Of a DNA stretch of 59,542 nucleotides, positions 25,089-40,514 are shown one piece after another (position 1 is the stretch's first letter; each line of letters starts with the position of its first letter). Origin of the DNA: a virus. Location of the stretch: positions 1 to 59,542 of the IMG/VR virus record IMGVR_UViG_3300008120_005569, one strand, 5' to 3'. Position numbers and translations under genes: made by a program. Under the pieces are notes generated by a model. That model saw only the letters and a program-made list of their open reading frames with translations. It was not told the DNA's origin and did not search any database.

Positions 25089-25577
25089 ATGGCTGAATTA
25101 CTTAATTCTAATGAGATATTTTTTACCCCATTTGAGCCAAAACTCCAAAACCGATTTATTATGTACATTGAGGGCGTTCCTTCTTGGTTAGTTAAGGGTG
25201 CGGGAAGACCAAACATTAACTTTAATCCAATCAAGTTAGATCACATCAACGTATATCGTAAAGTTAAAGGTAAAGGGGAATGGCAGGATCTAACCATTAA
25301 ACTATACGATCCTGTAGTGCCTTCGGGTGCTCAAGCGGTAATGGAATGGGTACGTCTTTCACACGAATCTGTGACGGGACGTGATGGTTATTCCGATTTC
25401 TACAAAAAGGATATTACATTCTTTACACTTGGTCCTGTAGGTGATAAAGTTGAAGAATGGACATTGAAGGGTGCATTTATTATTGCAACCACTTTTGGTG
25501 AAATGGATTGGGCAAATGATGCTTTCGTTGAGATTTCTCTCACATTAGCATACGATTATGCGATACTCCAATACTAA
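25089..25577 (+). CDS. 19: Tail tube protein (gp19-like)
   Basis: A 162-residue protein of the usual tube size. PFEPKLQNRFIMYIEGVPSW, the central WQDLTIKLYDPVVPSGAQAV segment and the C-terminal DDAFVEISLTLAYDYAI-type ending (here NDAFVEISLTLAYDYAILQY) match T4-type tube proteins. Hexamers stack inside the sheath to form the DNA channel. GGAGA precedes ATG 25089. It is bracketed by terminators, consistent with high-level independent expression. Confidence 0.95.
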   Translation: MAELLNSNEIFFTPFEPKLQNRFIMYIEGVPSWLVKGAGRPNINFNPIKLDHINVYRKVKGKGEWQDLTIKLYDPVVPSGAQAVMEWVRLSHESVTGRDGYSDFYKKDITFFTLGPVGDKVEEWTLKGAFIIATTFGEMDWANDAFVEISLTLAYDYAILQY

Positions 25578-25682: not shown

Positions 25683-26654
25683 ATGGAATCTACAATAAGA
25701 ACAATACTCGTTACCGGGGGTTGTGGTTTTATAGGAAGTAATTTTATACATAAATTGCTTAAAAGAGAAAACAACAATATCCAAATAATCAATTTAGACG
25801 CATTAACATACGCTGCAAAAGAAGAAAATCTACAAGAATTTATTGGTGATAAATTTTATAAATTTTATCACGGTAGAATTGAGGATGAAGAATTTGTGGA
25901 AAAGATATGTAAAGCACATGATGTCGAAGGAATAATCAACTTTGCAGCCGAATCACATGTAGACCGATCAATAGAAGATTTTAAACCGTTCTTGATAACA
26001 AACGTTACAGGAACACTATCCTTACTGAATGTTGCTAAAAAACTTAAACTAAAAAAGTTTGTTCAGGTGTCTACCGATGAAGTATATGGTTCATTAGAAC
26101 TAAACTCAAACGATAAGTTTACAGAAAATTCACAAATCTTACCAAATTCACCATACTCAGCTGCAAAGGCAGCTGCCGATGGGTTTGTTAGGTCTTTTTA
26201 TCACACATACGGTGTACCAACAGTTATTACACGTTGTTCAAACAACTACGGTCCACGTCAATTTCCAGAGAAATTAATACCACTTATGATATTAAATGCA
26301 CTTGACGATGCAAAATTGCCAGTATATGGTGATGGTTTGAATGTTAGGGATTGGATTCATGTTGACGATCACTGTCATGCTGTTTGGTTAGCATACGAGC
26401 GTGGTGTAAATGGTGAAGTTTATAATATTGGATCAAATAATGAGATTGATAATATAACAATAGTTAAAAAATTACTAATGATATTGGACAAATCCGATAA
26501 CTTAATAGAATATGTCGATGATAGATTAGGGCATGACCGAAGATATGCGATAGATTCAAGTAAAGCTGAGAGTGAATTGGGTTGGAGACCGAAAATATCC
26601 TTTGAAAACGGTCTTAGATCAACAGTTGAATGGTATTTAGCGAACAAAAATTAG
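25683..26654 (+). CDS. rfbB: dTDP-glucose 4,6-dehydratase
   Basis: A 323-residue short-chain dehydrogenase. NAD-binding TGGCGFIGSN at 11-20; NFAAESHVDRSI at about 86-97; catalytic Thr-Asp-Glu in STDEVYGSL (131-133) and YSAAK at 158-162; then RCSNNYGPRQFPEKLIPLMI and the C-terminal RRYAIDSSKAESELGWRP. All residues of the dTDP-D-glucose to dTDP-4-keto-6-deoxyglucose reaction are present, so it is probably active. It stands alone inside the tail module, behind its own terminator/promoter element. Use of the product for virion or host-surface glycans is inferred; no RfbA, C or D partner is seen here. Confidence 0.92.
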   Translation: MESTIRTILVTGGCGFIGSNFIHKLLKRENNNIQIINLDALTYAAKEENLQEFIGDKFYKFYHGRIEDEEFVEKICKAHDVEGIINFAAESHVDRSIEDFKPFLITNVTGTLSLLNVAKKLKLKKFVQVSTDEVYGSLELNSNDKFTENSQILPNSPYSAAKAAADGFVRSFYHTYGVPTVITRCSNNYGPRQFPEKLIPLMILNALDDAKLPVYGDGLNVRDWIHVDDHCHAVWLAYERGVNGEVYNIGSNNEIDNITIVKKLLMILDKSDNLIEYVDDRLGHDRRYAIDSSKAESELGWRPKISFENGLRSTVEWYLANKN

Positions 26655-26721: not shown

Positions 26722-27594
26722 ATGTCAAAAGTACCAAATGCTTACAACATTCCCGAAACTTTGAATGCCGAAATGAGTGATGCCGAAATAAAAGAGCGAT
26801 TACTGTCGGAATTTAAACAAACGGAAGTAAAAAAGAGTAATTTCCCAACAGAAGTTGTGCCACTACCATCACGTGGACTATTATACCCCGAAGGACATCC
26901 TTTAGCAGATGGTTTCATTGAAATGAAATACATGACTGCTAAAGAAGAAGATATTTTAACATCCCAAAATCTAATCAAGCAGGGTGTTGTGTTAGATAAA
27001 TTGTTTGAGTCTTTGATTGTTACACCCGTTAATTACAATGATATTTATAGCGGTGATAAGAACGCTATAATGGTTGCAGCTCGTCTATTAGGATATGGTA
27101 ATGACTATACCGTTGAATTGGAAGATCCATTTTCTCCAGGAACTAAACAAAAAGTAACAATAGATTTATCTCAAATCGAGCACAAGGAGGTCGATTACAG
27201 CTTATTTGAGAACAGAAAGAACGAATTTGACTTTGAACTTCCAAATTCAAAACGAGTAGTAACATTTAGACTTATGACTCATGCTTTAGAAAAACAAATA
27301 GAAACTGAAATTAAAGCGAGTAATAAGACTATAATAAAAACAGGTATTGATAGGGAATTAACAACAAGACTCAAACATATTATTATTGGCATTGATGGTG
27401 AAACAGGTCGTGCTGTTGTAAATAATTTCGTTGATAATGAATTATTTGCTGTAGATTCAAGAGCACTCCGCACATACATCAAAACAATATCTCCAGACTT
27501 AGATATGACATTCACATTCATATCAGAAGCCACTGGTGACGTAAAGGAGTTGGACATCCCGATGGATGTCTCCTTTTTTTGGCCTAACTCCTGA
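26722..27594 (+). CDS. 26: gp26-like baseplate / tail assembly chaperone (T4_baseplate family)
   Basis: A 290-residue protein. VVPLPSRGLLYPEGHPLADG, MKYMTAKEEDILTSQNLIKQ and DKNAIMVAARLLGYGNDY are the hallmarks of the T4 gp26 family (T4 baseplate protein domain). It precedes the tape measure gene, and its end overlaps a second frame at a T7 run, as in the G/GT tail chaperone arrangement of many phages. The last four residues (WPNS) are read only without frameshift. Start ATG 26722, AGGAAT upstream. Confidence 0.85.
   Translation: MSKVPNAYNIPETLNAEMSDAEIKERLLSEFKQTEVKKSNFPTEVVPLPSRGLLYPEGHPLADGFIEMKYMTAKEEDILTSQNLIKQGVVLDKLFESLIVTPVNYNDIYSGDKNAIMVAARLLGYGNDYTVELEDPFSPGTKQKVTIDLSQIEHKEVDYSLFENRKNEFDFELPNSKRVVTFRLMTHALEKQIETEIKASNKTIIKTGIDRELTTRLKHIIIGIDGETGRAVVNNFVDNELFAVDSRALRTYIKTISPDLDMTFTFISEATGDVKELDIPMDVSFFWPNS
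27552..27580 (+). other. Candidate frameshift / transcript-slippage site (hairpin plus T7)
   Basis: GGACATCC (27552-27559) pairs with GGATGTCT (27564-27571) around a 4-nt loop, followed by CC and seven T (27574-27580). A +1 ribosomal shift on TTT-TTT-T, or loss of one U during transcription, joins the gp26 frame to the next frame after Phe286. Confidence 0.55.
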
Positions 27595-27829
27595 GTATAA
27601 ATTAGGTCTTCATAGAGAATTATTCTCACTGTGTTATTATTCTGAAGGTGCTTTTACTTGGAGTGAAACATATTCAATGCCAATTCATCTACGTAGATTC
27701 TACATAAAAGAAACGAGTGAGGCAATTGAAAGACAGAATAAACAGTATGAAGACGCATCGAAAGGTAATTCATCATCAGCTGTACATCAACCAAATGTGC
27801 AAAATGTTGGATCATTATACTCAAAATAA
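27566..27829 (+). CDS. gp51-like second tail chaperone frame, probably made as a frameshift extension
   Basis: An 87-codon frame in the +1 frame relative to gp26, overlapping it by 29 nt. The coding content GLTPEYKLGLHRELFSLCYY, then FTWSETYSMPIHLRRFYIKE, resembles the short helical frame after gp26-type genes in other T4-like phages (MPI-x-x-RR-x-Y). An independent start at ATG 27566 has only a distant AAAGGAG (16 nt away). A shift at the T7 run would give a gp26-extension fusion of about 368 residues. In lambda-type systems such a GT fusion recruits tail tube subunits onto the tape measure. Confidence 0.6.
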   Translation: MSPFFGLTPEYKLGLHRELFSLCYYSEGAFTWSETYSMPIHLRRFYIKETSEAIERQNKQYEDASKGNSSSAVHQPNVQNVGSLYSK

Positions 27830-27844
27830 AGCGATAAATTTCAT

Positions 27845-27875
27845 GTCCACATATTTATTATATGTGGACTTTTTT
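27845..27875 (+). terminator. Perfect terminator hairpin with late-promoter-like octamer in stem and loop
   Basis: GTCCACATAT (27845-27854) pairs perfectly with ATATGTGGAC (27860-27869), 5-nt loop, six T. ATATTTAT (27851-27858) spans stem and loop. Confidence 0.9.
27851..27858 (+). promoter_or_regulatory. ATATTTAT late-promoter-like element inside a terminator
   Basis: The octamer is 47 nt upstream of the tape-measure ATG 27906. It overlaps the terminator's 5' arm and loop. Confidence 0.5.
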
Positions 27876-27905
27876 ATTCTATTCTAACTTTTCGGTGTAA
27901 TTTTA

Positions 27906-30900
27906 ATGGCAAAAAAGAAAAATACAGGTAGACCAGCCCCAAAACCCACCCAACAAAAACAAAGTGGTTCTAATGAAAATGCTGAAAACGGTGACAGACA
28001 AAGTAAATTGTTAGACCTATTAAAACGCAGAAAAGAATTAGAAACTGAAATACTTGCATTAAAAAAACAGATATTTACTGAAGATAAAAATGATGCTGAA
28101 CAGATTGATAAGATTAATCGGTTTGAGGGAAAACGCGTTAAACTTACTAAAGAATATTTTGATTTATTAGAGAAGATAGCAAAGATACGAAAAGATGAAC
28201 GTGAAGAACTTGTTAAGATAGAAAAATTAGAGATAGATAAACAAAAACGTCAAAAGGAAGAAGAAAAAAGAATAAAAAGTATTCAAGAACACCATGAAGA
28301 AATCGGAGACTTACAAGAAAGGGCTCAAGTATTAATGCGTTCATTGAGTGAAGAAGCTCAAAAACAGGCAACGAGTTTAGGATTGACTGCTTCAAATGCA
28401 AAAACATTAGCGGAAGAAATAAAAGATGCAAACATACAAATAACAGATTCAGCTCAAATAAATAAATCATTTGAAAAATCAATGACATCTGTTATGAACA
28501 TCGCAAAAGAGATGGATGCTTTGGAAGGACGTATCGCTGAAAACATGCAAAATTCTGTTGATGGTCAATCTAAATCGTTAGACTTGTATGAAACAGAAAG
28601 AAATCTTAAAATGGCAATGGCTCAATTAGATTTGAATGCTAATAAATTGGGCGTTGAACGCTACATGGCATTAAAGAAAACAACTGATTCATTTGAAGGA
28701 CAGTTTAAACGAATAACAAAAGTTAATAATGCATTAAAAGATCAATCAAAAATTGTTGCTAAAAATAAAAAAGATACTGCTTCTGCCTCAAGTCCATCGG
28801 ATGTTAAATCTATGGAAAGTAATGCTGATAAAATGGGCACATCAATGGGTGATAGATTCAATAGGGCAATGGAACGAGGTGCGAGTAAAGTTGGTGGTTG
28901 GGTAGATACCATTGCAAATAAAATACGTGGTGCAATGGAGTGGGCGGTTGATAAAATAAAGAACGGAATAAAAACAGTATTCTCAGCGGTATGGGATTTT
29001 GTCAGTAAAATATTTTCTATTTTTTACGATTCTGTTATGGATTTGGATAAAAGGGCAGCTGAAACAAGTAGGATTTTTGGTGTTAATAGAAAAATGGCAT
29101 TTGATATGGAAAAGTCATTTGCAAAAATGGCATTATCAGCAAACATCATAGGACAAAATTCAGAACAATATAGGGAAACAACTTCATTTTTAGCAGATAC
29201 ATATGGACTTGGTGTTGAGACACTAATGGGTGGTGATGCACAAATTGGTATAATAAAAAATATGACAACCTTACGGGAACAGTTTCAATTAACAAATGAC
29301 GAAGCTAAAAACTTATTTGAGTTTAGTGTGTTAACCGGGACAAGTATGGACAAGTTAGCACAGGTTACTGACAAGATGAGTGGTGGTATAATGCAAACTC
29401 AACAGGCATTAAAAGCCATGGCAAATGTTCCCAAGATAATGCAATTAAATATAAAGACCGGTTTAGCGGGATTAGCTGCCTTTGCAGCTAAAGCAAAATT
29501 AATGGGGGTTGATTTTGGTAAGATACAACAAATGCAAGATTCTATGTTGGATATTGAATCTTCATTGGGAAAACAATTTGAATCCACCGCGATAACGGGC
29601 ATTCATATAGGTGACATGGACAAAATAAGAGCGGCTGCTCTTTATGGTGAAACCGATAAGATGTTTGATCTTATTATGAAAAATATTGGAACGGTAGATC
29701 AATTTAAGGGTCTTCGTGGTGGTGTTATCGGTCAAAAGGCATTTGCTGGACAGTTTGAAATGTCACGGGAAGAAATGATTGAAATGTTAACACGTGGTGA
29801 AATGCTTAAAAAATTAGGATTGTCCTTTGAAAAGGCTGCAAGACTCCAAGCTAAAAATGAAAAAGAACTACGTGCTATAGCTGAACAAGAAAGGAAAGCT
29901 GGTAATATTAACCGTGCAAACTTCATAGACAATATTGCAAATGAAAAAAAACACGCTGAGATTATGACGAAAATAAATGATAAAATAGAAAAAATGAAAA
30001 TGCAGTTTGCACCAGCGGCTAGTAGAATATTGGATCTTATACATAAGATATTGGATAGATTATTGAATAGCCCAATATTCGATAAAATAATGCAGTTTAT
30101 GAATAATGCTGTTGAGAAATTCGTAAAGAATTTAGATGATTTTCTATCTGGTAAAATATCGTTTAAGGATCTATTTTCAGGGGTAGATTTCGGTTTGGGT
30201 GCGTTATTTAAAGAAATATTCAATGATCCTGCAATAAAAGAGTTTGCAAATTCTTTAGGTTTGGATAAAATAAATATATCGTTAAAAGGATTAAAAGAGA
30301 CATTAGCTGGAATAGAAGAAAAGTTAGGAGTAGTAACTTGGCTATTTGATAATTGGGGAAAAGTTTTGGGCGTAGTTTCTGCCTTGATACTAACCAAATT
30401 TATAGGTATGGGTGGATTATTTAAAATGGCAGTCGGTGCTGGTGTTTTAGCTGGTGCAATGTATTTTCTAACTGATTCTTTTGAAAGATTAGCAAAAGTA
30501 AATGCTGACAATCTTAAAAATGTGGGAATAATAATGGGTGTTATGCTAGGTGGGTTAGTAGGATTAGGTGCGTTAACAGGTCAATTCCCACAAATTATTC
30601 TTGGCATAGTCATTATAGTAGCTTCGTTTAGACTATTGGTTGGTGCTATGCTTGCATTGGCAGAAGTTGCTGATAAATTAAAACCTGTATTTGACTTCTT
30701 ATTAGAACTTGGTAAACTTATATTACAACATTTTAAACAGATGCAAGATTTAGTATACAATTTAGTTAAACTACTTGCAGACTTTCTAATAGAAGCCGTA
30801 AAACAAGTTGGTATTTTAGTAGTAAACGTTTTAACTGCTATCGGTGACAATATGGTAAAAATAATAAGCAAAATACAACAAGCAGCTGAAACATTAATAC

Positions 30901-31796
30901 CAATATTCAGAGATGCTATTGTAGCTCTATTAAATTCGGTTGGGCAAGCTTTCAAAGTTGTTTTTGATTCCATATTTGGTGGTATAACTGCTGTAATAGA
31001 AAAGGCTTTAACAAAAGTAAATGAAGTTATTTATGTAATAAAAGATTCAATAGTAGCTGTAATAGAGTCCGTAAAGTCTGCTATAGACACATTAGCGGGT
31101 GCATTTATTCGTGTGTTGGATAAAGTAATAGAGTTAGTAAAATCAAATCCAGGTAATATAGTAAAGATTGCAGAGGCAATGGCGAGTATAGCTTGGAGTT
31201 TAGGAAAAATGTCATCGGGTATCTTCGGCAGTTCAGGTTCTAAGTTTGCTGAGTTTATGGAAATAGTGCATGTTGCAGACCCAGGAAGAATACAAGCGGT
31301 TGCAAATAGTATAAGAATGTTGACACAAGCTATTCGTGAGTTGAATGGTGCAATGGGTAACTTCAATACTAATAAATTAAACATGGTTGTTAGTAAAACA
31401 CAAAACACAACACCAATACGACCGGGTGGAACAAGTATATGGGGTGATTTTAAGTCAGGAATATCGAATCTTTGGAACAGTGCAACATCATTTTTATCAG
31501 GTGGTTCACAACAGAAGTCTACAAAAATGACATCACCACAAAGAAGTTTTTCTGTTGCTTCAAGTCCTGGACAAGCACAACAGCAACAATATACGCAGAC
31601 GCAAACCACAAACCCATCAACAAAAGAGATGGAAAAGAAGTTGGATACTATAATAAAAATATTGTCAAGTCAATCAACACAAACCGCTCAAATTAGATTC
31701 GGTGAAAAGTTTGTGGAAGAAGTTAAAGTACAATTGGGTAGAATTAGTGATGTTGATGGTAATATTGACTCTGCACGTGGTAGATTCATAAAATAA
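27906..31796 (+). CDS. 29: Tail tape measure protein
   Basis: A 1296-residue protein. Residues 1-300 are strongly charged coiled coil (KELETEILALKKQIFTEDKN). A central section holds amphipathic helices (AMEWAVDKIKNGIKTVFSAV). Hydrophobic membrane-like segments lie around 810-920 (WGKVLGVVSALILTKFIGMG, FPQIILGIVIIVASF). The Gln/Ser/Thr-rich C-terminal region is followed by a short helix (KKLDTIIKILSS). This coiled-coil plus hydrophobic layout, its size, and its position after the tail chaperones identify the tape measure, which sets tail length and may insert in the host membrane during ejection. gp29 equivalence is by role, not by sequence. Confidence 0.85.
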   Translation: MAKKKNTGRPAPKPTQQKQSGSNENAENGDRQSKLLDLLKRRKELETEILALKKQIFTEDKNDAEQIDKINRFEGKRVKLTKEYFDLLEKIAKIRKDEREELVKIEKLEIDKQKRQKEEEKRIKSIQEHHEEIGDLQERAQVLMRSLSEEAQKQATSLGLTASNAKTLAEEIKDANIQITDSAQINKSFEKSMTSVMNIAKEMDALEGRIAENMQNSVDGQSKSLDLYETERNLKMAMAQLDLNANKLGVERYMALKKTTDSFEGQFKRITKVNNALKDQSKIVAKNKKDTASASSPSDVKSMESNADKMGTSMGDRFNRAMERGASKVGGWVDTIANKIRGAMEWAVDKIKNGIKTVFSAVWDFVSKIFSIFYDSVMDLDKRAAETSRIFGVNRKMAFDMEKSFAKMALSANIIGQNSEQYRETTSFLADTYGLGVETLMGGDAQIGIIKNMTTLREQFQLTNDEAKNLFEFSVLTGTSMDKLAQVTDKMSGGIMQTQQALKAMANVPKIMQLNIKTGLAGLAAFAAKAKLMGVDFGKIQQMQDSMLDIESSLGKQFESTAITGIHIGDMDKIRAAALYGETDKMFDLIMKNIGTVDQFKGLRGGVIGQKAFAGQFEMSREEMIEMLTRGEMLKKLGLSFEKAARLQAKNEKELRAIAEQERKAGNINRANFIDNIANEKKHAEIMTKINDKIEKMKMQFAPAASRILDLIHKILDRLLNSPIFDKIMQFMNNAVEKFVKNLDDFLSGKISFKDLFSGVDFGLGALFKEIFNDPAIKEFANSLGLDKINISLKGLKETLAGIEEKLGVVTWLFDNWGKVLGVVSALILTKFIGMGGLFKMAVGAGVLAGAMYFLTDSFERLAKVNADNLKNVGIIMGVMLGGLVGLGALTGQFPQIILGIVIIVASFRLLVGAMLALAEVADKLKPVFDFLLELGKLILQHFKQMQDLVYNLVKLLADFLIEAVKQVGILVVNVLTAIGDNMVKIISKIQQAAETLIPIFRDAIVALLNSVGQAFKVVFDSIFGGITAVIEKALTKVNEVIYVIKDSIVAVIESVKSAIDTLAGAFIRVLDKVIELVKSNPGNIVKIAEAMASIAWSLGKMSSGIFGSSGSKFAEFMEIVHVADPGRIQAVANSIRMLTQAIRELNGAMGNFNTNKLNMVVSKTQNTTPIRPGGTSIWGDFKSGISNLWNSATSFLSGGSQQKSTKMTSPQRSFSVASSPGQAQQQQYTQTQTTNPSTKEMEKKLDTIIKILSSQSTQTAQIRFGEKFVEEVKVQLGRISDVDGNIDSARGRFIK

Positions 31797-31835: not shown

Positions 31836-34800
31836 ATGTCATTGTTAGACTTAAAATCAGATTTATCAAAATACCGTTGGAAAGGTCCAGGTGCCCCCGT
31901 AGATCCAAGCTCGAAAACACCTAGGGCAACGAGTTATGGCGATAACTTTGGTTCGTTTCAACCAATATCCAATACGTTTATAAAATCGGGTAATTTACCA
32001 AAAGTCGTTCAACCAAAGGAAGTTGATTTGATTGGGAAGTTAGATGACACCCGTTTGGATAATATAGTTACTGATATGCGTGAATCACAATTGGTTCAAC
32101 GTTTAGAAAATACAAGATTGGATGATATACAAAAACCACAAAATAGAAATATTCTTATTAATGCTGTTTCATCATTATCACCACAGGCAAAAGACGATGT
32201 TACAAACCAATTCAATAGAATAACAACGGAAGATGTTACATCCGAATTAGCAAAAATAAATCAAGATATATCTCAGACAAACATAACAAAATCAGATGTT
32301 GTGGTTTTGAAATCAACAACCGCTGGTGAAAACAACACAAGGTCTAATGTTGATATAATAAAGAGTGACAATCAACGTGGTAATGTACGTGATCCAAACG
32401 TTGTAATAAATAGGACACCATTATTCATAAATAGAGAAGCACAGTCTGCTGTAATAATAAAAGATTTAAGAACAACAACAGACAATATAACAGATCCTGG
32501 AACACCTGTAAACAAAGTTGTTCAAACGGTAGATAGACAAAATCAATCGCCATCAATAAACACCTACAATGATTTAAATGGTTCTATTGTTAATTTAGAG
32601 ACAAATAATTTAGTAGATGATACACAATTTGATATTGTTGGTACACCATCAAGATACAACACAGATTCCAAATTAGTATTGAAACAACGTGCAACTATTG
32701 ACACAACACGATACGATCAGGTATCCGATATATTGGGTGCGCCAAGTAATCTAAACTTGGATGACGTTAGCGAAACAAACCCAAGTGGAAGACATAACAC
32801 AGATAGAAACACGGAACTGTCAAATAAAAATGGCCAAGAAATAGACTTCTTTCCCAACACAAATGCAGAAGGGTTCACTAACAAAGTCCAATCGGGTGTA
32901 ACCGAATACGATTTGGATTCTTCGGTTTTAGGATTTGACGGTGTAACTGAAGCAAATTACTTTGATATAACAAATAGATTTACAACTGAAGGATTCCACG
33001 CATTTGCACAGACACGTGAAGACACGAAATTTAAAGATGGTGCTTCTGAGTTTGATTGGGATAAAAATGTACCACTATCGGATTACTTTGATACAAATAG
33101 AACCTATACAAGAAGTGGATTTCATTCGTTTGCACAAACAGGTGAGGCCACCAAGTATAAAGTAGAGTCGAGTATTTTCGATTGGGATGGTGTTAGAACA
33201 CAGTCACCATCGGTAAATTATTTTGACCTAACCAATAGATATACAACAGATGGATTTCACAACTTTGCAGTAGAGTATGATACAAAATACATAGTTGGTT
33301 CTTCTAGATTTGATTGGGACGGTTTACGTGGTAGTGCTCCATCTACAAATTATTTCGATGTTGCTAACATAAGTACATTTAGAGGATTTCACAATTTTGC
33401 AATAACTAAAGAACCAACATCATATCAAACAAGACTGTTAGGAAGTTCTTTAGTATTAACAGACAACGCTTCTTTATTGGATTGGGATGGATTAACAGTT
33501 CCAACCGTTAACTTTTTTGATTTAACAAATAGAAGCACATTTCGTGGATTTCATGCTTTTGCAACAACAAGAGAAGCTACTTCGTATCAAACATCACTGA
33601 TTGGTAGTTCTTTAGTTCTCACCAATAACGCCTCATTCTTGGATTGGGATGGGACTGTGAATAATGTACCCACTGTTAATTTCTTTGACCAAAATAATCT
33701 TAGAACATTTCGTGGTTTCCATTCATTTGCAACAACATTAGAACCAACTTCATATCAAAATGTTAGAGTTGGAACCGCGTTTACACTTAGAACAAATGCT
33801 ACGGTATTTGATTGGAATGGTGTACGTGTAAATGCTCCTGCTGTAAACTTCTTTGATCAAAATAATATTAGAACATTTAGAGGTTTTCATACCTTTGCAC
33901 AAACTCTTGAACCAACTTCATATCAAACAAATGCAATTGGAACTACATTAGCATTAAGACCAAACGCAACTGTATTTGATTGGAACGGTATACGTGTAAA
34001 TGCTCCTGCTGTAAATTTCTTTGATTTAACAAATCTACATACATTTAGAGGATTCCATACTTTCTCAACAACATTGGAACCAACTTCGTATATTCAGGGT
34101 GCATCATTTTTAGATTGGGATGGTCTAAGAGCCGCAGCTCCTGCCGTTGATTTCTTTCCATCTTATGCTGTTCCACGTGGATTCCACACATTTGCAAGAG
34201 AATATGATACGTCATATAGAAATATACAATTGGGTTTAACATCTGTATTAGATCCATTTGCTTCGTTTTTAGATTGGGATAGTCCGTTTTTAATAAATAC
34301 ACCACAACAACCAGGTGCTCCTGCTGTTAACTTCTTTGATTTAACTAATAGAAGTACAACTCGTGGTTTTCATCTATTTGCACAAACAGGTGAACCAACG
34401 TCATATAGAATACAAAGATTGGGACAAGGTGGATTTGGTTTAGATCCAAATGCTTCATTTTTAGATTGGACTGGTGGTAGACAAAACGCACCAACTGTAA
34501 ATTATTTTGCTAATTGGCCTGCTGGACCAACAACGAGAGGGTTCCATGCTTTTGCTCAGCAAGCTGAACCTACATCTTTTGCAACTGTTCAATCGGGAAA
34601 TGTAATAGCACTGAGAGCAAATACATCAAGATTTGATTGGAACGGTTCAAGTACATTTGCTCCAGCCGTTGATTTCTTTCCATCGTATGCTGTTCCACGT
34701 GGATTCCATACCTTTGCAAGAACATTTGACACATCGTATAGAACTACACAAGTTGGACTGACATCAGTATTAGATCCATTTGCTTCAGCATTTGATTGGG

Positions 34801-37800
34801 ATAGCCCATTCTTAGTAAATACAGCACAACAACCAGGTGCTCCTGCGGTTAACTTCTTTGATTTAGCAAACAGAAGTACAACTCGTGGATTCCATACATT
34901 TTCGCAAACAGGTGAACCAACATCATACCAAACAAGAAGATTGCAGGGTGGTGGATTTGGATTGACAGATAATGCTTCTTTCTTGGATTGGAATGGTGGA
35001 AGACAGAACGCTCCAACCGTTAACTTCTTCGATCCAAATAATATAAACACATTAGCGGGATTCCATTCGTTTGCAACAACACGTCAAAATACACGGTATA
35101 ATACTGGAACAATAGGTAACAACCTCTTAGCACCAGGTGCAACTACATTTGATTGGAACGGTTTGCGTAATAATGCTCCTGCTGTTAATTTCTTTGATTT
35201 AAACAATGTAAGCACCACACGTGGATTCCACACATTTGCTGACTTGAGTGGTGGAACAACCGCTTATAGATTGGCAGTAGGATTTAATCCAGTTTTGGGT
35301 GGTTCTGTAAACTTTTTAGCACCAGGTGCTACTAATTTTGATTGGGACGGTTTAGATCCATATTCAATTAGAACAACTAATTTCTTTGGATTCACAAACA
35401 CAACAAGATTTGGATTCATGGTGAACATGTCTCAATTCGATGGAACAGCCTATCCAATAATAAATCCAAGATTTAATGCTAATATACTTCGTATTCAAGG
35501 TGTAGGACAACGAGCTCAAAGATTTGGTTTGACAACATTTAGACAATTATTACAACCACTTCAAACAAGTAACTTAGAACAATTTGCACCCGCTACATTT
35601 GGTGGAAAAACTATATCCGGATTTAGGTCAACATTAGACATCCAAACACCGGCGGTAATACTACAAAAATTTAACTTGAATGTAGCAACTAATCGTGTTA
35701 GAATAAACCCAACTGCTCCTGGATTTACAAAGAGATATACTTCAGGTGGGGGTGTTGATATAAGACCATCAACCGTTGACGGAACAATTGAAAGTTGGGC
35801 TAATAGTAACTCATTACCACTACAAGTACCGTTTTCTGGAAATCAGTCAGATACATTAATAGAAAGACTACAAAAGAAATATAGATTAAGAGATGAGGCA
35901 TATAATACCGATATATTTGGATTAAGACAACCATTTGTAGATGATTCATTACATGGACCTGAATCGGTTTCTATGTTCCCGTTTGATGATGGTTTGGTTC
36001 GTGGTGGTATAGTAAACAACACAATAAGTGCTTTATTAGATTCAGTACGAATCGGTAAGTTTCTATTGTCGGGTAGAGGTATACTTTTCAACATAAAACA
36101 ATCAGGCCTTCAGGCTATGAATCCTAATGTTGATAAACCAACTGCTAATAATCCAATTGATAGTTTTTTAAATCTACCAAGCATAATATCAACGAAGGCA
36201 CCAAGTCAATTTTACAATCCACTTTCAATACCTAGAAATGTTTTAGAAGTCGGTCCTTTGGGTAATAGATACGCTCGTCATGGTATAATGATGGATGGTG
36301 TGTTCGGTAGATATGAACGTGTTGCTATAGACAGAGCTTTGAATTCAGATAAGTACAGTTACTTTGATGAATTTTCAGATTCAGCTGATAATAACTATAA
36401 TAGATTAATTGGTTTGGTTAAAGAGTTATTGCCAAATTCATACGATCCAATAAGACAGAACACATTACCAAAACAAAATACTCAGTTAGAAATAAATAGA
36501 ATATCATCGTCACACGGTGGGCCTGGATCTTTATTAGGATTTTTTGGTACAACAATTAATAGAGCAACTCATCCATTTAAGATTGTAAATTCAACCAATT
36601 ATATTCCAGAGCAAGTAAATGTAACTTTAGGATTAGACCGCGAAGTATTTTTCTCAGCGAGATATGACAGTGGAAACCGTCAGACTGATACATATTCTGA
36701 AATGTTATTACGTCAAATTGAAAAATATGACGGTGATATGCATGGTTTAATTTTAGATGCAGCTATGCTTTCTATAACACAAGTAGCTCCATCACCACGG
36801 AATGCAAGCACCACAGCCGATAGTCAACTCTATACACCATCATTTTCTGACAGTAGAAAAAATAAAATAAATTCTGCGGATTCAAAAATACAGTTAATAA
36901 CAAGACAACGTATTGGTGCATCTAAAGTTTTTGATTTTAAAAAACCAACTACAACGGAGAGATTTAAAGCTATAAACGGTGGTTACATACCATACCGAGA
37001 TAAAAATGAAAGTATATTTGACGAAATATTCTTTGTAGGGTCCAAAAATAAAAAAACATATTACGATAGACTATTCGGTGAAACAGATGGTGAATCAACA
37101 AAATACGGAAATGCGTATGGTGTTATGTTAGGTTCAACCGTTGGGATTGTATCATCAGGACTGCTGCCAAAATTTGTAGATGGAAGACAGATAATAGACA
37201 AAACAGAATTTAAAGTACCATTAAACAAATACGATAAACGTAGAATCGAAGAATTAGATGTCTTTGGTTTTAAACAAATACCAATAAAGGAAAGAGGACG
37301 CCGTGTTATAAGTGAGAACATAACACCAAGAAAAGATTTGTTGGAGTTAGCTTCTGAAACCTTTTTCACCTCAAATTTAATAAGAAGTGATGTAAATTTA
37401 ATATCAAGATTCTCATATGGCGATTATTTGTTGGGTAGATTGCCTGACGGAGAAACTCAACAAGTTGTACTAAACCCACAGGATCAAAATGAATTTTCTT
37501 TAGGTATATTAGGTTCATTAACGTTGAATCAAAAATTAGAGGGTATACATAGAAAATTTGAAGGTGATGTTGTAATAGAAGCTGAATACAATAAGATACC
37601 TATAAACGATAAAACAAAAACTCTTATTGAAAAATTAAAACCCTTTGAATTTATACCTCCAACAGTTAACAGTAGATATAAAGCTGTAACAAGTGAAAAT
37701 GCTTACCGAGAAGGTGAAAATCTTTATAGTGAGATGTATTTTGGAAGTGCAAAATCAAAATACGATGTATTGGTTGGTAAAACAGTAGACAAACTAAGTT

Positions 37801-40514
37801 ATGGTGCAAAATTAAAAGACGATTGGGCTACTAAAAATTCAAGAGTATATGGGTTAGTGTTAGCAGCTGCTACTTTAAATTTAAGAAAAACAGCGTCTTC
37901 ACCAAGAAATGCGTCTACAATAATAGTTGGTGGTCCAACTTGGGATTCTTATGTAAATGGTAATTTCGATGGGACAGCTGCAAATGAAGCATATCCACTC
38001 AGTGAAGTAGCAATTAACAGTGAAACTGTACAAACACTAAAAGCATTAAAAACATTTGATTTTAAATACCCAAATCCATATGAAAGGTTCAGTGCTTTAA
38101 GTGCTTTGGGTGAAAATTTTAGAGAGGGTAACAGATCTTTATCAAATGGACCTGATATTGATGAATCTGCTAAAAATGTAAATCCATTATTAAAGTACAA
38201 AACAACACGATATAGTCAATTAGGTGAGACACGGAGTTCAAATGCTTGGTGGAGTGCTTCTCAACCAACTGACTTTAGAGATAAGATAATAGATGGTACT
38301 GAGTATTTTTCAACCGATCCAAGAGTTGTAAATTATAAAAAATATGGAGTGGAATTAAGAGGCGATGGTACTGGATTCGGTGACCCAGGTCTTCCTGGAT
38401 ATAGAAAGAATTTACCGTACATTAGCAATATACATTATACTTCGGGTCTTTCACGTGCAGCTGCGGACTCATTTGCGAGTGGCAGTAAACAAAATAATCA
38501 GCCTGCTAATAGAAAATATGGTGCATATCCAAATACTAAACCCGAAATACTTAAACGAGAACAGGCTGAAAGAGAGAATGGTAATCCAACAGCAACTTTC
38601 TTCAGAGGCGATAGAATAAACATAATAGATTGGAAGCGGTCTGAACAGAATATAAATGTTAATAATGTTTACGAAAAAACTTCACCGTATGGAAATCAAA
38701 TGTTAGGTTCACAAGACCTAATACAGTTTTACTTCTCAGGTGTAGATTTGATTGCTTCTGAAAATAAGCCAACTGAAGCTATAGTATTTCGTGCTTACAT
38801 CGATACTATTTTGGATAACCACAAACCAACGTGGACTCCAATTAAATATATTGGTAGAGCCGATCCTGTTTATTCTTATGACAGTTACGAAAGAGAAATA
38901 TCATTTGGATTCACAGTACATACAGGAACTCGTGACGAATTAAAAGCAACATGGCGTAAATTAAACATGCTTGCTTCATGGACTACACCTGACTATGTAG
39001 ATCCAGGATTTATGAAGGCACCTATATGTAGATTAAACATCGGTAATCTTTATCGTAAATTCCCAGGATTTATAAGTTCACTGACGTATACTTTTGATAA
39101 TACAATGACTACGTGGGAAACTGCAAAATTAGCTGAAGATTTAAATATATCAGATCGTAATATAGGACCATTATCAAAACCAGGTGCTTTGGAATTGCCA
39201 AAAACTATTTTAGTTCAATGCACATTTGTGACATTTAACATATACAGACCACAGTGGGATTGTGTGTTCTATTCATTATTCGATGATACAACGGGTGGAA
39301 CATCCGTTGAAACAGGTTTGGTTCCAAGGAGTGATGACCGTGTTAATTACTTCAGAACACATGATGATTTACCAGTTACACATCCTATGAACGCTTTATT
39401 GTGTGCGGTAATACCACCGCCACCACCTCCACCAGTTCCTAAAAAGAGAACAATAACAGCAGGTGGACCTGGAGGCGAAGCAACAACACCACCACCAACA
39501 ACACCGCCACCAACAACGCCACCACCTACAACCGCTCCTCCTAATTTGCCGGAGAAGATTTGTATTTGCAAAATAGATTTTTGCTTTGATGAGGACCGTG
39601 AAATAACTCCCGAATCAAGACGAGCAGTAATTCAAGTTGCAAATTGGTTAAATGAATGTCCGAATATACGTGTCAATGTAAAGGCGTATTGTTCAAGAGA
39701 GGCTGATAACTTTGCTTATAATAAATTGTTATCTATGGCAAGAGCTGTAACGGTATGTAATTTGCTTATAGAAGAATGTGGAATAGCTTCTAATAGATTG
39801 GTTCCCGTTGGTATGGGATTTGGTGATTACAAAGAGGCATACAAACCAGAATCTAAAAATAGATGGGCAAAACAACAGAATAGACGAGTTATATTTGAGA
39901 TAATAGAAGGAGCTGATTCTTGTAACTATAAACCAAGTTTTGACTGTAACCCAGAACTACCCGAATGCGATAAGTCAGAATACTGTTACAGAAAAGATGG
40001 TACTAAGTTTTGGAGAGTTGGTCCACATTACTTCACAGGTAATAGATTTATAGAGGAGGGTGGAAAGAGTGTCGGTGAAACATACACAGGATGGCCAAAG
40101 AGCACTGGCCCAATACGTCCTCCAGGATTAAGTATCGGGGCGTTCAACTCCAAAACTAAATTAGAATTACCGTTTGCAGCCGATTTAACAAAGAGACTTG
40201 CTTGGCATAAATCATATAGAATACAAAATCCAGACGAGACTCAAGGCGTTGCTCAACAAACATATAACGTTTGGTTCGATCCATTATTAGATGCTAAACA
40301 GCATTTTCAATTGGAAGGTACTTCTGAAAAACCTGTGATAACAATTTCGGGTGGTGATACACCAATAGATATTTGGCGTCGTAGATATAATAGAGATACC
40401 AACATAAAGAATACAAAAGGAAAACAAACACACGTCAACACTGGATTTTCGGGTAAAAAGAAAGGTGAAGATGGATTGGATAATGTGACATACATAATAA
40501 ATCCAAATAAGTAA
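31836..40514 (+). CDS. Giant baseplate/tail protein: GFHxFA repeats, gp48/54-like domain, OmpA-like domain
   Basis: A 2892-residue protein. Residues 1-345 are Asn/Thr/Asp-rich. About 350-1190 hold fifteen copies of a (V/D)-x-F-FD...T-x-RGFHxFA...EPTSY module. About 1640-2050 hold a second duplicated module with SPRNAST. About 2280-2490 resemble T4-type gp48/gp54 baseplate-tube junction proteins (FRAYIDTILDNHKPTWTPIK, YIGRADPVYSYDSYEREISF, FRxGTRDELK-type TGTRDELKATWRKLNMLASW). After a proline/threonine linker, residues about 2573-2700 form an OmpA-like domain (ICKIDFCFDEDREITPESRR, VKAYCSREADNFAYNKLLSM, RLVPVGMGFGD, QQNRRVIFEI). It probably spans the baseplate and contacts peptidoglycan on attachment. 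Such a fusion is unusual; the role is inferred. Confidence 0.75.
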   Translation: MSLLDLKSDLSKYRWKGPGAPVDPSSKTPRATSYGDNFGSFQPISNTFIKSGNLPKVVQPKEVDLIGKLDDTRLDNIVTDMRESQLVQRLENTRLDDIQKPQNRNILINAVSSLSPQAKDDVTNQFNRITTEDVTSELAKINQDISQTNITKSDVVVLKSTTAGENNTRSNVDIIKSDNQRGNVRDPNVVINRTPLFINREAQSAVIIKDLRTTTDNITDPGTPVNKVVQTVDRQNQSPSINTYNDLNGSIVNLETNNLVDDTQFDIVGTPSRYNTDSKLVLKQRATIDTTRYDQVSDILGAPSNLNLDDVSETNPSGRHNTDRNTELSNKNGQEIDFFPNTNAEGFTNKVQSGVTEYDLDSSVLGFDGVTEANYFDITNRFTTEGFHAFAQTREDTKFKDGASEFDWDKNVPLSDYFDTNRTYTRSGFHSFAQTGEATKYKVESSIFDWDGVRTQSPSVNYFDLTNRYTTDGFHNFAVEYDTKYIVGSSRFDWDGLRGSAPSTNYFDVANISTFRGFHNFAITKEPTSYQTRLLGSSLVLTDNASLLDWDGLTVPTVNFFDLTNRSTFRGFHAFATTREATSYQTSLIGSSLVLTNNASFLDWDGTVNNVPTVNFFDQNNLRTFRGFHSFATTLEPTSYQNVRVGTAFTLRTNATVFDWNGVRVNAPAVNFFDQNNIRTFRGFHTFAQTLEPTSYQTNAIGTTLALRPNATVFDWNGIRVNAPAVNFFDLTNLHTFRGFHTFSTTLEPTSYIQGASFLDWDGLRAAAPAVDFFPSYAVPRGFHTFAREYDTSYRNIQLGLTSVLDPFASFLDWDSPFLINTPQQPGAPAVNFFDLTNRSTTRGFHLFAQTGEPTSYRIQRLGQGGFGLDPNASFLDWTGGRQNAPTVNYFANWPAGPTTRGFHAFAQQAEPTSFATVQSGNVIALRANTSRFDWNGSSTFAPAVDFFPSYAVPRGFHTFARTFDTSYRTTQVGLTSVLDPFASAFDWDSPFLVNTAQQPGAPAVNFFDLANRSTTRGFHTFSQTGEPTSYQTRRLQGGGFGLTDNASFLDWNGGRQNAPTVNFFDPNNINTLAGFHSFATTRQNTRYNTGTIGNNLLAPGATTFDWNGLRNNAPAVNFFDLNNVSTTRGFHTFADLSGGTTAYRLAVGFNPVLGGSVNFLAPGATNFDWDGLDPYSIRTTNFFGFTNTTRFGFMVNMSQFDGTAYPIINPRFNANILRIQGVGQRAQRFGLTTFRQLLQPLQTSNLEQFAPATFGGKTISGFRSTLDIQTPAVILQKFNLNVATNRVRINPTAPGFTKRYTSGGGVDIRPSTVDGTIESWANSNSLPLQVPFSGNQSDTLIERLQKKYRLRDEAYNTDIFGLRQPFVDDSLHGPESVSMFPFDDGLVRGGIVNNTISALLDSVRIGKFLLSGRGILFNIKQSGLQAMNPNVDKPTANNPIDSFLNLPSIISTKAPSQFYNPLSIPRNVLEVGPLGNRYARHGIMMDGVFGRYERVAIDRALNSDKYSYFDEFSDSADNNYNRLIGLVKELLPNSYDPIRQNTLPKQNTQLEINRISSSHGGPGSLLGFFGTTINRATHPFKIVNSTNYIPEQVNVTLGLDREVFFSARYDSGNRQTDTYSEMLLRQIEKYDGDMHGLILDAAMLSITQVAPSPRNASTTADSQLYTPSFSDSRKNKINSADSKIQLITRQRIGASKVFDFKKPTTTERFKAINGGYIPYRDKNESIFDEIFFVGSKNKKTYYDRLFGETDGESTKYGNAYGVMLGSTVGIVSSGLLPKFVDGRQIIDKTEFKVPLNKYDKRRIEELDVFGFKQIPIKERGRRVISENITPRKDLLELASETFFTSNLIRSDVNLISRFSYGDYLLGRLPDGETQQVVLNPQDQNEFSLGILGSLTLNQKLEGIHRKFEGDVVIEAEYNKIPINDKTKTLIEKLKPFEFIPPTVNSRYKAVTSENAYREGENLYSEMYFGSAKSKYDVLVGKTVDKLSYGAKLKDDWATKNSRVYGLVLAAATLNLRKTASSPRNASTIIVGGPTWDSYVNGNFDGTAANEAYPLSEVAINSETVQTLKALKTFDFKYPNPYERFSALSALGENFREGNRSLSNGPDIDESAKNVNPLLKYKTTRYSQLGETRSSNAWWSASQPTDFRDKIIDGTEYFSTDPRVVNYKKYGVELRGDGTGFGDPGLPGYRKNLPYISNIHYTSGLSRAAADSFASGSKQNNQPANRKYGAYPNTKPEILKREQAERENGNPTATFFRGDRINIIDWKRSEQNINVNNVYEKTSPYGNQMLGSQDLIQFYFSGVDLIASENKPTEAIVFRAYIDTILDNHKPTWTPIKYIGRADPVYSYDSYEREISFGFTVHTGTRDELKATWRKLNMLASWTTPDYVDPGFMKAPICRLNIGNLYRKFPGFISSLTYTFDNTMTTWETAKLAEDLNISDRNIGPLSKPGALELPKTILVQCTFVTFNIYRPQWDCVFYSLFDDTTGGTSVETGLVPRSDDRVNYFRTHDDLPVTHPMNALLCAVIPPPPPPPVPKKRTITAGGPGGEATTPPPTTPPPTTPPPTTAPPNLPEKICICKIDFCFDEDREITPESRRAVIQVANWLNECPNIRVNVKAYCSREADNFAYNKLLSMARAVTVCNLLIEECGIASNRLVPVGMGFGDYKEAYKPESKNRWAKQQNRRVIFEIIEGADSCNYKPSFDCNPELPECDKSEYCYRKDGTKFWRVGPHYFTGNRFIEEGGKSVGETYTGWPKSTGPIRPPGLSIGAFNSKTKLELPFAADLTKRLAWHKSYRIQNPDETQGVAQQTYNVWFDPLLDAKQHFQLEGTSEKPVITISGGDTPIDIWRRRYNRDTNIKNTKGKQTHVNTGFSGKKKGEDGLDNVTYIINPNK
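32880..35420 (+). repeat. Fifteen-copy GFHxFA protein repeat with internal block duplication
   Basis: Fifteen GFH(A/S/N/T/L)F(A/S) modules of about 45-70 residues, with degenerate flanking copies. The two-module block starting VPRGFHTFAR...TSVLDPFAS and ending GGFGL...RQNAPTVN occurs twice (about 34150-34520 and 34670-35030), showing a recent segmental duplication. Confidence 0.9.
39410..39545 (+). repeat. Proline/threonine linker repeats before the OmpA-like domain
   Basis: A run of six prolines (PPPPPP), then repeated PPPTT units encoded by ACCACCACCAACAAC-type 15-bp repeats. It is a rigid tether between the baseplate domain and the peptidoglycan-binding domain. Confidence 0.85.

Follow-up and report, generated by a model that had tools for sequence, protein, structure and literature searches.

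The window, a 59.5 kb virus record, carries a T4-like structural module with portal, major head, sheath, tail tube, gp26 and tape measure genes. The gp26 frame ends in TTT TTT (codons 285 and 286, at 27574 and 27577) followed by TGG CCT AAC TCC TGA, with the TGG of codon 287 at 27580, and a second open frame, closed by a stop codon at 27827-27829, overlaps this end (Table 1). A sequence-only reading of this DNA had described two frames meeting at seven T, a product of about 368 residues from a +1 shift after codon 286, a hairpin 2 nt before the T run and a position directly ahead of the tape measure gene. All of this was borne out: the overlap is read directly at 27574-27580, a +1 shift after codon 286 (reading U/GGC) would yield one protein of 368 aa, the hairpin at 27552-27571 stands exactly 2 nt from the T run, and the tape measure gene (phrog_5493) starts at 27906. 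The segment 27541-27600 folds with -18.1 kcal/mol (z -2.6).

Table 1. Features at and around the end of the gp26 frame, in window coordinates
Feature	Position	Strand	Remarks
gp26-like gene, probable short tail assembly chaperone (TAC-N)	26722..27594	+	290 aa, C-terminal end ...SFFWPNS*
Second open frame, predicted C-terminal domain of the long form (TAC-C)	27545..27829	+	+1 relative to gp26; domain sequence FGLTPEYK...
Shine-Dalgarno-like AAGGAG inside gp26	27544..27549	+	23 nt (aligned) before the first slippery codon; 3 nt with the hairpin looped out
5' hairpin GGACATCC-CGAT-GGATGTCT	27552..27571	+	CC between hairpin and T run
Putative slippery codons UUU UUU (285, 286)	27574..27579	+	peptidyl-tRNA-Phe would re-pair perfectly one base forward at either
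Zero-frame A-site codon UGG	27580..27582	+	predicted post-shift reading U/GGC; TGGCCT near-invariant
Zero-frame stop TGA ending the short form	27592..27594	+	15 nt, counted from the T of TGG through the last base of the stop
Tail length tape measure protein gene, presumed chaperone partner	27906..31796	+	phrog_5493, E 1e-12

Three neighbouring features were recorded. A nucleotide-sugar epimerase/dehydratase gene (phrog_540; PF16363) lies at 25683-26654, between tail tube (25089-25577) and gp26, and appears to have been inserted late into the tail module, since a gene of this kind occupies that place in only 21 of 331 loci that hold both tube and gp26. Past the second frame and ahead of the tape measure gene stands a strong terminator-like hairpin with a T6 run (27845-27876); Microcystis phage Mel-JY01 (locus L162) has a comparable hairpin and T run at this place, and the tape measure gene may form a transcription unit of its own. 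The tape measure gene is followed at 31836-40514 by a gene for a 2892-aa protein whose sole family match is local and weak (phrog_7897, residues 2543-2686).

Identity of the two halves

The gp26-like protein matches PF12322 T4_baseplate (E 1.6e-5, above the cut-off) and the baseplate hub family phrog_150 (E 4e-9). T4 gp26 and gp51 are paralogues that both match these two families, and their matches cover positions 14-235 and 13-280, respectively, of the 282 profile positions, so that gp51 corresponds to a gp26 domain with a C-terminal addition. The gp26/gp51 pair has been published as a tail assembly chaperone (Vladimirov, Gautam & Davidson 2022, Virology 566:9-15, as cited in PMC10885494 and PMC12846349).

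When the fused +1 family was aligned by hhalign with the fused family of T4-like phages that have -1 sites, the two matched at 98.4% (E 5e-15) with register kept across FF/G and FF/R. The C-terminal domains alone matched in a profile-profile comparison at 96.7% (E 4e-10, score 51.7), and 100 column-shuffled controls for this match scored at most 15.6. A single-sequence scan did not reach phrog_634, and a search of the second-frame domain against a viral fold library gave no confident match, the best being uncharacterised (E 0.007). Structures of the gp26 and second-frame halves were predicted separately. The AlphaFold model of gp26 (pLDDT 84.5) found as its best PDB entry by VIA-align the HK97 tail assembly chaperone 2OB9, a weak match (Z 4.5, 85 residues; Foldseek E 0.88) covering gp26 residues 167-257. 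By profile comparison, the window's two halves are homologues, in register, of the T4-like gp26 and gp51 C-terminal domains, and the chaperone arrangement of the lambda G/GT kind suggested by the sequence-only reading is supported by this homology. That reading had missed the link to T4 gp26/gp51, as well as the Shine-Dalgarno (SD) element and the -1 sites of other T4-like phages.

Conservation of the junction and selection on its signals

The motif T7GG by itself is unremarkable in this AT-rich window (2 observed, 3.4 expected), and a hairpin followed by T6 or longer occurs several times. Relatives were drawn from IMG/VR, as a first set of 160 loci and an enlarged set of 259 distinct sequences. 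The second frame lies at +1 in 160 of 160 loci of the first set and in 254 of the 259 sequences of the enlarged set, in whose search it was not detected in 4; locus L100 was scored inconsistently, as +1 in the first set and otherwise in the enlarged one. About 250 distinct relatives share one junction (TTTTTTTGGCCT or a variant of it), with the second frame beginning on the same codons. Before GGCCT, the enlarged set contains TTTTTTT (211), TTTCTTT (34), TTTCTAT (4), GCTTTTT (2) and TTCTTTT (1), and two relatives lack TGG, reading TTT CTT TAC and TTT CTA TTC once each. Because one pattern scan for relatives had presupposed the motif, the count was repeated on 110 loci found through gp26 alone; site variants there numbered 78, 27, 4 and 1, and the T7 run was absent in 32. 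In 243 of 245 relatives the zero-frame stop follows at one of two distances, 15 nt (121 relatives) or 21 nt (122 relatives).

The same junction is kept down to about 40% gp26 identity and also in distant phages at 24-27%, and conservation runs unbroken across FF/GL. Among isolated phages, the +1 layout is found in Mel-JY01 and RM378 (both T7GG), Flavobacterium phage immuto (TTTCTTTGG) and Streptococcus phage GXN1 (TTCTTTCGT), and LR756508 is likewise +1 with the site TTTCTATTC. A relatives search started from RM378 gp26 returned no match besides RM378 itself. It is the conservation of this junction among relatives, rather than T7GG itself, that exceeds chance. In Mel-JY01 and immuto, one gp26 place was detected per record and no second, so a long form in these phages would not come from a detectable second gene.

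Selection was examined on 146 representatives sharing less than 85% identity. At the site, Phe is encoded by TTT 274 times and by TTC once, as compared to 1185 and 256 times in the rest of gp26 (p 7e-20). Folding of the 30 nt that precede the site is more stable than that of synonymously recoded versions (mean z -1.03, p 1e-15), and seven control stretches of gp26 gave z about 0. Base pairs change register between lineages, so the conserved item is a hairpin and not one particular helix. In the subset of relatives with TTTCTTT, hairpin selection is weaker but persistent (z -0.79, n=14, p 0.05). Complementarity to the 16S 3' end is greatest about 23 nt upstream of the first slippery codon, with z -17 against the synonymous-codon expectation, and lies below -6 kcal/mol in 73% of representatives. 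Measured against synonymous alternatives, the hairpin and the SD-like element are both selected beyond coding.

The raw aligned SD spacing is 26 or 23 nt in most relatives, hairpins are weaker in the group with 26-nt spacing, and many distant relatives have the SD with a weak hairpin. In the window, looping out the hairpin reduces the spacing from 23 to 3 nt; short effective spacing overall is slightly enriched (38% versus 29%, z 2.4). The hairpin as a universal requirement was rejected, many distant members having E near 0. A role of the hairpin or SD in loading ribosomes onto the second frame was likewise rejected, no start codon being present at suitable spacing.

Proposed frameshift and alternative readings

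Taken together, gp26 and the second frame very probably encode a T4-like tail assembly chaperone (TAC-N/TAC-NC) made by +1 programmed ribosomal frameshifting, and ribosomes in a large group of uncultured T4-like phages almost certainly slip +1 at the gp26 end. That ribosomes shift, how often, and on exactly which codon, we infer from sequence conservation. Most ribosomes would end at the gp26 TGA and release the 290-aa short form (TAC-N), while a minority would slip one base forward on UUU UUU before UGG and produce the 368-aa long form (TAC-NC), which would gain a helical C-terminal domain from the second frame. By analogy with lambda G and GT, we infer that coating of the tape measure protein falls to the short form and that the extra domain of the long form recruits tail tube subunits.

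The slipping tRNA would be tRNA-Phe (UUU to UUU or UUC) or, in some variants, tRNA-Leu (CUU to UUU, as in RF2), and a one-base-forward slip of these tRNAs is compatible with every site variant seen, the P-site codon being able to re-pair as UUU_U, UUU_C or CUU_U in each. In the window and its relatives, the second frame lies at +1, so that a -1 shift at a slippery heptamer would not lead into it. Several observations count against the +1 reading. The A-site codon is UGG, which is not obviously slow, and not a stop codon as in RF2; the SD lies 23-26 nt upstream and not 3 nt, unless the hairpin brings it close; and the T7 run with its hairpin in the window is also terminator-like.

A possible extra step addresses the spacing: the hairpin may loop out, leaving the SD 3 nt from the slippery codon, a spacing known for +1 slips. 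A review gives SD spacings of 3 nt for +1 and 9-14 nt for -1 shifts (PMC5009743). The best SD spacing is 10-11 nt in six of seven T4-like phages with -1 sites (phiM12 scored 17) as compared to 23-26 nt plus hairpin in most +1 phages. We therefore entertain, tentatively and at less than even chances, a split SD stimulator in which an SD too distant at 23-26 nt would regain RF2-like spacing by hairpin loop-out, the direction of shifting having switched at a single homologous poly-U site when the SD changed its position. This idea is offered as a hypothesis, strongest in the window's own clade, because the enrichment of short spacing is slight and the relatives with 26-nt spacing have weaker hairpins.

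The sequence-only reading had left open a +1 shift or transcript slippage; the ribosomal shift is supported, and transcript slippage is not supported as a general cause, more than 40 of about 254 distinct relatives having the same +1 junction without T7. In transcript slippage, the polymerase would drop one U (or add two) within T7, aided by the hairpin, and the two frames would be fused in part of the mRNA. The T7 run does come right after a hairpin-prone stretch in the window and in 211 distinct relatives, and the site resembles an intrinsic terminator. However, this process needs a homopolymer, and a long one is not present at the junction in all members: the junction persists with TTTCTTT, TTTCTAT, GCTTTTT and TTCTTTT, and the isolated phages immuto (TTTCTTT) and GXN1 (TTCTTTC) have none. 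Hairpin selection continuing, if weakly, in the TTTCTTT relatives and an SD element that fits ribosomes rather than polymerase point the same way, and slippage by the polymerase is considered very unlikely.

A -2 slip by the ribosome is held to be just as improbable. It would lead to the same frame with one extra Phe at the junction, codon 286 would re-pair well on T7, and phage Mu uses such a slip (PMC5009743), but at TTT CTA TGG and GCT TTT TGG it would probably leave the tRNA mismatched, unlike a +1 slip.

Expression of the second frame as a separate gene, started independently or by coupling at the gp26 end and with no fusion, has slighter prospects still. The window does have an in-frame ATG at 27566 with the SD-like AAGGAG upstream, and the deposited annotations of Mel-JY01 and immuto call a separate small gene. 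Yet that ATG lies 16 nt from the SD and inside the hairpin, and 172 of 245 relatives lack an ATG. A conserved independent start, the outcome that the sequence-only reading had set against fusion, was not found in relatives: any ATG, GTG or TTG is missing in 95 of the 245, which argues against a separate gene, a start with an SD is missing in 212, and second-frame starts at SD-compatible spacing occur in only 14 of 103. The lack of any break in conservation at FF/GL, and the fusion of the same domain to a gp26 domain in T4 gp51, also speak against it. Least probable of all, and scarcely credible, is an intragenic terminator or a chance overlap lacking any recoding function, for although a terminator scan flags the site and T7GG is not rare in the window, the junction is retained at the low gp26 identities given above.

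With +1 frameshifting as the preferred reading, a whole T4-like clade common in IMG/VR appears to reach by a +1 shift the same two proteins for which -1 signals occur in sister lineages, at this very Phe-Phe position. The gene family would thus provide a natural series in which to study how the direction of ribosomal frameshifting is determined, the SD and hairpin being a signal open to testing. Annotation would be corrected as well, the small hypothetical gene after gp26 becoming half of a fused protein.

Comparison with known systems

A 2016 review describes wide conservation of the G/GT frameshift among long-tailed phages, 'except T4', and elsewhere among tailed viruses a +1 chaperone shift is known or likely, e.g., in the haloarchaeal myovirus HSTV-2 (PMC5009743). 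Two genes have since been given as the explanation of the T4 pair, and published T4-like chaperone genes have poly-T -1 signals or consist of a short gene plus a long one (Vladimirov 2022, as cited in PMC10885494 and PMC12846349). Our literature search, in which Vladimirov 2022 was represented by the papers citing it, yielded no description of a +1 site for this T4-like group, and the +1 version with its SD/hairpin signal in a T4-like chaperone looks new on the sequences compared here.

The window resembles T4-like gp26/gp51 in having a gp26 domain as the predicted short form and a gp26 domain plus C-terminal domain as the long form. T4 and Campylobacter phage CP220 each have two paralogous gp26-family genes (T4, locus L168, 5303-6729; CP220, loci L185 and L187), unlike the window with its predicted +1 shift; the two duplications may be independent, the branches of the gp26 tree being long here. 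P-SSM2, Syn9, HTVC008M, Cr30, phiM12, KVP40 and phiW-14 have one gp26 gene with the gp51 C-terminal domain in the -1 frame; T4-like phages of this kind (cyanophages, KVP40 and others) use U_UUU_UUC or U_UUU_UUU (U_UUU_UUY), in contrast to the +1 site of the window. The +1 phages group together in the gp26 tree with one -1 phage among them, the branches being long and the deep order unsafe. This phage, the 595 kb uncultured LR756511.1 (locus L167), ends gp26 in GGT TTT TTC, a classical -1 heptamer, and is a possible direction switch because it carries that heptamer although its gp26 groups among +1 phages.

Two further systems resemble the proposed signal. The +1 frameshift of RF2 shares the CUU_U or UUU_U slip site, the direction and an SD stimulator (PMC5009743); its A site holds a stop codon and its SD is 3 nt away, whereas the window's group has UGG and an SD at 23-26 nt, which falls to 3 nt only with the window's hairpin looped out. 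In T4 genes 25 and 38, a looped SD serves initiation, and the SD of gene 25 lies at the gene 26-25 junction (PMC3014915, citing Nivinskas 1999 and Malys & Nivinskas 2009). The split ribosome binding site there resembles the window in combining an SD and a hairpin at a junction, with the hairpin shortening the SD spacing; the T4 element starts gene 25 and that of the window has no start codon following it, the likeness drawn here being one of layout.

With phage lambda G/GT, the window shares the order of short chaperone, frameshifted long chaperone and tape measure gene, and in having the chaperone adjoin the tape measure gene it differs from T4, in which genes 26 and 29 lie apart. Lambda shifts by -1 (PMC5009743) and the window by a predicted +1, the likeness drawn here being one of gene order and logic.
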